A DNA stretch of 33,611 nt, taken from assembly GCA_030041455.1 (NCBI GenBank), contig JASHNV010000087.1, forward strand, positions 1-33,611, given 5' to 3'. Below the pieces are notes generated by a model. That model was not told the origin of the DNA. It saw only the letters and a list, made by a program, of their open reading frames with translations, and did not search any database. Made by a program: the position numbers and the translations under genes. Of this stretch, positions 32,592 to 33,611 are shown piece by piece. The DNA comes from Spirochaetia bacterium. GTDB taxonomy: Bacteria > Spirochaetota > Spirochaetia > DAHUYW01. Within the stretch, counting starts at the first letter, position 1. Each line of letters starts with the position of its first letter.

Positions 32592-32662
32592 GCGACCGTC
32601 GTATAATGGTAATACCCGAGCTTCCCAAGCTCGTGCCGAGGGTTCGATTCCCTTCGGTCGCT
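32592..32662 (+). tRNA. tRNA-Gly (anticodon CCC)
   Basis: The acceptor stem GCGACCG (32592–32598) pairs fully with CGGTCGC (32655–32661), with T32662 as discriminator. The D arm is GTA…TAC with TAATGGTAA between, the anticodon stem CGAGC/GCTCG encloses TTCCCAA (anticodon CCC, reading GGG), and the T arm has TTCGATT in the loop. The CCA end is not encoded. It is 71 bases long without CCA. Confidence 0.95.
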
Positions 32663-33145: not shown

Positions 33146-33175
33146 TTGACGGCGACGCAGTCCGCTGAGTATGCT
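33146..33175 (+). promoter_or_regulatory. Promoter of the fluoride riboswitch transcript
   Basis: TTGACG (33146–33151) and TATGCT (33170–33175) with an 18-base spacer predict a start near 33182, only a few bases before the aptamer. This placement is what a riboswitch leader requires and supports both calls. Confidence 0.7.
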
Positions 33176-33185
33176 TGTTGGCGTG

Positions 33186-33281
33186 GGGTTCGGCGATGGA
33201 GTTCGCCGAACCTGCGCTCTACGGCGCTTCAGCGCCGGCCTCTCCGCCCGCCGGACTCCCGAATCGGCTGATAACTCCTAC
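33186..33281 (+). promoter_or_regulatory. Fluoride riboswitch (crcB RNA motif)
   Basis: The aptamer core is seen directly. A first stem GGCG (33192–33195) pairs with CGCC (33204–33207) around the loop ATGGAGTT. Its GGAGTT (33198–33203) is perfectly complementary to AACTCC (33273–33278), forming the pseudoknot that defines this class. The 3' strand reads GCTGATAACTCCTAC (33267–33281), the conserved GCUGAU-n-A-nn-CCUAC pattern, and AACC follows stem 1. Between them is an enlarged stem region including the hairpin GGCGCT/AGCGCC (33223–33236). An outer extension makes GGTTCGGCGA/TCGCCGAACC a 10-bp inverted repeat. Fluoride with Mg ions is the known ligand. There is no U-run terminator directly after it, so translational control is plausible. 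The usual target crcB/fluC is not seen; the next large gene is a HyfC/NuoH-type subunit. Confidence 0.85.
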
Positions 33282-33335
33282 CTGTTGGCTTCCGCTCGCG
33301 TTTTCGCGCGACGGGACAACGGGGGGAGCGCGTTC

Positions 33336-33458
33336 ATGAAGCTTCCGGAGGCAGTTCGTTTCGCAGGCGCGCGATCCGACGGTCGCTCACCCGCGAGCTT
33401 CCCTGCCAATGCCTCGCGCGGTCGCGCAGCTCGCGCGACTCAAGGCGGTTGGCCATGA
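33336..33458 (+). CDS. Possible 40-residue leader ORF between riboswitch and hyfC-like gene
   Basis: ATG at 33336 follows a strong purine run GGGGGGAG (33321–33328) with good spacing, and its TGA (33456–33458) overlaps the ATG of the next gene as ATGA. The peptide (MKLPEAVRFAG … ATQGGWP) is Arg/Ala-rich and matches nothing I know. The arrangement would allow the riboswitch to gate a ribosome site that is then coupled to hyfC. It may equally be chance in G+C-rich DNA. Confidence 0.3.
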   Translation: MKLPEAVRFAGARSDGRSPASFPANASRGRAARATQGGWP

Positions 33459-33611
33459 TTCCCTACATCGTATTCAACCTCATGCAGGTCGTGGTGGTGC
33501 TGCTTTGTGCGCCTCTTGCCTCCGGCGTGCTCTCGCGGATGAAGGAGATCGTCCAGTCCAAACAGGGCCCGAGCATTTTCCAGCCCTACCGCGATTTGTG
33601 GAAGCTGTTTC
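33455..33611 (+). CDS. HyfC/HycD/NuoH-family membrane subunit, N-terminal part (partial)
   Basis: The first 52 residues are present and the gene runs off the window. They form a membrane helix (about 4–26, ending APLASGVLSRMKEIVQSKQ) followed by GPSIFQPYRDLWKLF. The 'R.GPs..QpYrDLwKL' loop after helix 1 is characteristic of subunit 4 of formate hydrogenlyase and group 4 [NiFe]-hydrogenases (HyfC, HycD), distant relatives of NuoH of complex I, where this loop helps form the quinone/proton-side interface. The 'QPYRDLWKL' wording favours HyfC over NuoH, which has a different Q.aD.lK pattern. It is probably the first large gene of a membrane hydrogenase or related ion-pumping complex lying to the right, downstream of a fluoride riboswitch. 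Confidence 0.8.
   Translation, partial: MIPYIVFNLMQVVVVLLCAPLASGVLSRMKEIVQSKQGPSIFQPYRDLWKLF

Follow-up and report, generated by a model that had tools for sequence, protein, structure and literature searches.

Why would a fluoride riboswitch stand in front of a gene of the HyfC/NuoH type? This question is raised by the end of a 33,611-nucleotide stretch of DNA (the window), which is the whole of contig C129 in a 3.39-Mb assembly of 199 contigs that is 95% complete. The initial annotation had read here a promoter just before a fluoride aptamer and, as the next large gene, a membrane subunit of a group 4 hydrogenase or formate hydrogenlyase. We found that the aptamer, the promoter and the type of the gene were read correctly, while the enzyme behind the switch has to be reinterpreted.

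A fluoride riboswitch precedes a hyfC-type gene

A covariance-model search, which had been suggested as a check on the aptamer, gave a significant match to the fluoride riboswitch family RF01734 that covers the full model (positions 1-64) and exceeds the gathering score of 34 bits (Table 1). The same interval scores 35.0 bits with our own aptamer model, R1, and it is the one fluoride aptamer detected by Rfam in the window. Common to this RNA and the crcB motif are P1, the conserved 3' strand and the pseudoknot GGAGUY/RACUCC, formed by 33198-33203 with 33273-33278. In contrast to usual members of the family, the window aptamer has a long insert with an extra hairpin, and a HyfC operon lies downstream instead of crcB or eriC. 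The aptamer owes its extra length to this GC hairpin, which separates P1 from the 3' part in both copies of the locus (C129 and C171). Its sequence thus confirms that the window RNA belongs to the fluoride riboswitches.

Transcription is predicted to start at ~33182, where the aptamer begins. The second copy of the aptamer (C171:958-1061, 35.8 bits) retains the same elements, and its promoter is likewise retained, with TATGTT. Neither a crcB nor a CLC gene was found between the window aptamer and the HyfC-like frame, which starts at an ATG and reaches the contig end.

Table 1. Features at the riboswitch end of the window
Feature	Position	Strand	Evidence
tRNA-Gly(CCC)	32592..32662	+	Rfam RF00005, 60 bits; ARAGORN
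Sigma-70-like promoter TTGACG-18-TATGCT	33146..33175	+	Consensus scan, 0.1 expected in shuffles
Fluoride riboswitch aptamer RF01734	33183..33287	+	Rfam cmscan, 36.9 bits, E 7e-7
Aptamer P1 hairpin GGCG-ATGGAGTT-CGCC (strands 33192-33195/33204-33207)	33192..33207	+	Rfam alignment
Pseudoknot 5' half GGAGTT	33198..33203	+	Sequence; Rfam alignment
Extra hairpin CGGCGC-TTCA-GCGCCG	33222..33237	+	Fold; alignment with C171
Pseudoknot 3' half AACTCC, also in predicted alternative helix	33273..33278	+	Sequence; folds
Predicted expression platform hiding the ribosome-binding site	33275..33328	+	RNA folds, both copies
40-codon leader ORF	33336..33458	+	Sequence
hyfC/nuoH-type gene, first 52 codons, cut at contig end	33455..33611	+	Translation

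The expression platform is predicted to act on translation

Downstream of the aptamer, CUCCU(A)CCUGUUG (33275-33287) is predicted to pair with CAACGGGGGGAG (33317-33328), the ribosome-binding site of a short leader ORF upstream of hyfC. This alternative helix, with CUCC/GGGGGGAG as its core, is predicted in both copies (z about -2.2 and -2.5). The two structures share a strand, as AACUCC either forms the pseudoknot of the aptamer or, together with the following bases, pairs with CAACGGGGGGAG. The leader ORF has the same length in C171, and its TGA overlaps the hyfC ATG (ATGA); thus, coupled translation is likely. No intrinsic terminator was found 3' of the aptamer in the window sequence. The evidence for Shine-Dalgarno sequestration comes from C129 and C171, the per-locus count having lacked a null model.

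The simplest reading of the predicted folds is a translational ON-switch. Fluoride binding would form the pseudoknot GGAGTT/AACTCC, which would free the ribosome-binding site from the same CUCC strand, and translation of the leader ORF would then be coupled into hyfC.

The operon of the window and its second copy

Because the window is a whole contig, the genes downstream of its end were read from C171. The last 993 bp of C129 are 94% identical to C171 and the final 97 bp are identical (blastn); no contig of the assembly besides C171 carries the end sequence of C129. The two contigs may represent two strains or two copies. The full-length HyfC of C171 has 314 amino acids and scores 114 bits to PF00146, in line with the assignment of the truncated frame, and is followed by hyfE, hyfF and hyfB and then by a gene on the opposite strand. 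This continuation encodes neither the large nor the small subunit of a hydrogenase, and decayed remnants of G and I were not detected between F and B. Strong matches obtained in the latter search proved to be HyfF, matched by a read-through query. Judged from the second copy, the operon of the window is most likely hyfC-E-F-B, which corresponds to just the membrane part of an Ehr-type complex.

The HyfC of C171 shares 80-83% identity with proteins from other phyla and 68% with another copy in the same genome, on contig C31. Comparison of C129 with C171 (blastn) also showed that the 3' part of the tRNA-Gly gene (32620-32662) is repeated at C171:395-437 without the 5' half. The duplicate resembles an attachment site, and the same sequence follows it as in the window. 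Such a pattern would fit insertion of an element at the tRNA in one of two strains, or a tandem duplication of the region. Elsewhere in the window, positions 1922-2612 resemble a pair of a Phd/YefM-type antitoxin and a PIN-domain toxin, judged from the translated frames.

Fluoride aptamers elsewhere in the genome

The genome contains nine fluoride aptamers, six of them on C31. This contig is joined to C80 by 197 identical overlapping bases, and together they (loci L009, L010 and L011) make up a fluoride island with seven aptamers. These precede genes for enolase, a DUF6062 protein, a histidine phosphatase, a MutS-like ATPase and an unknown protein, as well as a full hyfC-E-F-G-I-B operon, which sits on C31 behind its own aptamer and holds the sole Ehr-like large subunit of the genome. 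True complex I is encoded separately, on C117. No CrcB family protein was detected in the 95% complete assembly. A single CLC gene with GREGP, considered as a hidden fluoride exporter, is located on C175, where no aptamer was found.

Two further observations concern the island. Downstream of the aptamer at C80:907-971 lies a protein of at least 266 amino acids (L011:1-798, minus strand) that has no Pfam or NCBIfam match. A weak aptamer-like site (L010:1665-1730, minus strand), which scores 25 bits with Rfam and 50.8 bits with our own model, trained partly on that site, faces a short TPR-like frame and stands back to back with the aptamer of the MutS-like gene.

Fluoride aptamers accompany the operon across phyla

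Subsequently, we considered HyfC loci from named genomes, mostly metagenome-assembled. Seventy loci were fetched with the C171 and C31 HyfC peptides alone, ignoring RNA, and were scanned with model R1, built from 20 sites and trained on sites of the class Spirochaetia. An aptamer on the same strand lies within 700 nt upstream of HyfC in 57 of the 70 loci, and 18 of 19 rechecked loci have an Rfam fluoride match at the gathering score. The 13 loci without a near aptamer include four archaeal ones, some that start at a contig end and several in which the aptamer lies farther off. At one locus (L029), the pseudoknot is compensated (GAGGCT/AGCCTC). As a control, we examined 17 PF00146 genes in 26 related genomes; an aptamer precedes only four of them, all Hyf-type (C31, C171, G001:C256 and G022:C47), and none was found before the ordinary NuoH genes of these genomes. 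In the congener G001, a single contig carries five aptamers, and a HyfC-type gene closest to the Bacteroidota form follows one of these.

The sequences show this linkage across phyla; the fetched loci come from at least Planctomycetota, Pseudomonadota, Acidobacteriota, Nitrospirota, Campylobacterota, Spirochaetota, Lentisphaerota, Gemmatimonadota, Actinomycetota, Bacillota, Eremiobacterota/Vulcanimicrobiota and Bacteroidota, and the gene order C-E-F-G-I-B is conserved across the family operons. A crcB gene inserted between the switch and the hyf genes, the arrangement that would have undercut the direct link, was looked for in relatives and seen only in Bacteroidota. At locus L103, gene order places first crcB and then a further small gene between the aptamer and the operon; L106, with the same spacing, is probably alike.

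Of 48 genomes with the operon, 28 also contain crcB, which rules out that the two are strict alternatives. Thus, the complex is not a simple replacement of the exporter; in many species it supplements the passive F- channel, and in others, including the present one, it may act alone.

In six loci (L055, L072, L080, L084, L088 and L097), a second, paralogous C-E-F-G-I-B operon adjoins the first, with 28-44% identity and mostly behind its own fluoride aptamer. Two loci end the operon with two HyfB-type antiporter genes in tandem (L053, 6508-10955; L086, 14578-19012). The Nitrososphaerales archaea (L099-L102) have related operons without Ni-Fe ligands, in which no aptamer was detected; they are possibly an outgroup with another trigger.

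Ni-Fe ligands are missing and Fe-S ligands are partly lost

The large subunits lack the ligands that define a group 4 [NiFe] hydrogenase or formate hydrogenlyase. The second L1 cysteine, and hence a complete L1 CxxC, is present in none of 62 readable sequences, the first being kept in 7, and neither L2 cysteine occurs in any of 58. Among PDB entries, the closest to the C31 large subunit is E. coli FHL subunit 5, whose catalytic RVCGICGFAHS stands opposite RFSATTAFASS of C31 in the HMMER alignment. Thus, the sampled complexes are not hydrogenases, and the proposal that fluoride calls on a hydrogenase or an enzyme of formate metabolism does not hold: C171 has no catalytic subunits, and full operons elsewhere have no Ni-Fe ligands.

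The Fe-S ligands of the small subunit are more variable. All four proximal-cluster cysteines are kept in 31 of 55 sequences, and a ferredoxin-like cluster motif (CP plus CxxCxxC) in 51 of 55; therefore, most members may still move electrons. In 17 of the 55, the fourth cysteine is replaced by N, Q, H, S, A or G. All four are lost in three Bacteroidota sequences and in one Eremiobacterota paralogue (second operon of L088). On a large-subunit tree confined to members of this family, these changes require about five events.

The Bacteroidota small subunit has neither any Fe-S cysteine nor the ferredoxin domain, and all six operon genes are kept. Its AlphaFold model (pLDDT 82) matches the MbhJ, HycG and NuoB chains with a Foldseek probability of 1.00, while the large subunit of this form matches HycE, NuoD and MbhL in structure.

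The ion path is conserved

The antiporter Glu/Lys/His positions of F and B are 98-100% conserved, Bacteroidota included. We take these positions to be the TM5 Glu, the TM7 Lys, the later His/Lys and the TM12 Glu of the complex I antiporter subunits. As the ion-path residues are kept while the redox ligands vanish, selection appears to maintain ion transport and to tolerate loss of redox cofactors.

The complex is neither respiratory complex I nor an Mrp antiporter. The operon is C-E-F-G-I-B, with no NADH module, and the RMDY region of NuoD/Nqo4, with the quinone-site tyrosine, reads RF[AS]AT when aligned to 2fug_4, so that the Nqo4 Tyr87 region is not preserved in the motif alignment. Mrp cation/proton antiporters share with the operons MrpA/MrpD-type antiporter subunits with conserved Glu/Lys; they lack, however, the NuoH-, NuoD- and NuoB-type subunits, all three of which are kept in the full operons. 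The C31 operon and loci L042-L111 instead combine a group-4-like large subunit without CxxC motifs with HyfC/E/F/B-type membrane subunits, the composition of an Ehr complex.

Relation to known complexes

Formate hydrogen lyase genes were listed among several contexts of crcB-motif RNAs in Weinberg 2010 (PMC2864571), which agrees with what the initial annotation had stated of this regulon. The link between switch and genes is the same here; in contrast to that listing, however, the operons have no Ni-Fe ligands, make up a family that is nearly dedicated to fluoride and spans many phyla, and have lost Fe-S ligands in some lineages. Complexes of the Ehr kind that lack Ni-Fe ligands have been described from Nitrospira (PMC10284858) and Margulisbacteria (PMC6349859), with a function that is unknown or a suspected redox role. 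They have group-4-like subunits without Ni-Fe CxxC motifs in common with our operons, whereas fluoride is unmentioned in those papers and the operon here follows a fluoride switch.

Formate hydrogenlyase/Hyf (PDB 7z0s) and Mbh (6cfw) share the subunit types and folds G, I, C, E, F and B. Unlike them, the operons studied here lack Ni-Fe ligands, formate dehydrogenase and electron-input subunits, and their small subunit either carries a fused one-cluster ferredoxin domain or has lost it. The MBS sulfane reductase (PMC7684303) has also lost Ni-Fe cysteines and has a three-cysteine proximal cluster, as do 17 members here; in MBS, such a cluster is catalytic. MBS retains two of its four Ni-Fe cysteines and lacks one cysteine of the small-subunit pair, while here it is the PGC ligand that is lost, and MBS has no link to fluoride, unlike the present family.

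In the literature searched, from which subscription papers were mostly absent so that novelty is unproven, we found no link of fluoride to Ehr or to a complex-I-like complex. Nor did we find there a description of a fluoride-controlled "hydrogenase" without Ni-Fe and, in one lineage, without any redox cofactor.

Proposed function

We somewhat favor a model in which the fluoride ON-switch controls a Ni-Fe-less membrane complex of the Ehr kind that acts as an ion translocator and not as a hydrogenase. The induced complex, resembling complex I and group 4 hydrogenases, would move H+ or Na+, or possibly HF/F- itself, and would thereby counter the effects of HF entry: the proton load, the loss of membrane potential and the build-up of fluoride. 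On the sequence evidence, an ion-translocating role in fluoride stress is the most likely one, which favors the early guess of ion or proton pumping; the pumping itself, the ion moved and the energy source are inferred.

A more specific version, which we consider less likely than not, is that a member of the superfamily has turned into a dedicated fluoride-stress transporter, independent of redox chemistry and driven by an ion gradient, maybe moving HF/F- through the former active-site chamber. This version is suggested by the Bacteroidota form, in which all six genes and the ion path are retained although Ni-Fe ligands, Fe-S ligands and the ferredoxin domain are gone.

The same form weighs against a redox-driven pump, which we regard as fairly unlikely for the family, if possible in lineages whose Fe-S ligands are complete. 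In such a pump, ferredoxin or formate would supply electrons that pass through the remaining Fe-S clusters to quinone or another acceptor, and fluoride would call on it because inhibition of enolase shifts the redox state of the cell. The frequent retention of the ferredoxin-like motif and of all four proximal-cluster cysteines agrees with such a pump, as do the functional three-cysteine cluster of MBS and the fluoride switch of enolase itself in this genome. However, the L088 paralogue has no proximal-cluster ligands, the Tyr87 region is not preserved, and electron-input genes are absent from the C-E-F-G-I-B set.

It is unlikely that the copy in the window is a decaying or stranded piece of a horizontally acquired element at tRNA-Gly, in which C-E-F-B without G and I would be functionless. 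The duplicated tRNA 3' half, the closeness of the C171 HyfC to proteins of other phyla and the missing G and I speak for this reading; however, all four C171 frames are intact, the aptamer, leader ORF and promoter are retained between copies that differ by 6%, and the membrane subunits might work with the G and I subunits encoded on C31. An ordinary formate hydrogenlyase or Hyf hydrogenase, induced by fluoride to alter formate or proton metabolism, is highly improbable: NCBIfam names of the HyfB/HyfF-like subunits, the PDB relative of the large subunit and the 2010 listing speak for it, but the missing L1/L2 motifs refute it for the sampled family, and no catalytic subunit is encoded in the C171 operon.

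Two puzzles meet here, namely, the fluoride riboswitches found in 2010 before "formate hydrogenlyase" genes and the role of Ehr complexes without Ni-Fe. Our results suggest a shared answer, namely that the Ehr family described here serves the response to fluoride. In the Bacteroidota version, nature would also provide a test of whether antiporter arms like those of complex I can operate with no electron transfer at all, a question relevant to the coupling of redox chemistry and pumping in complex I.
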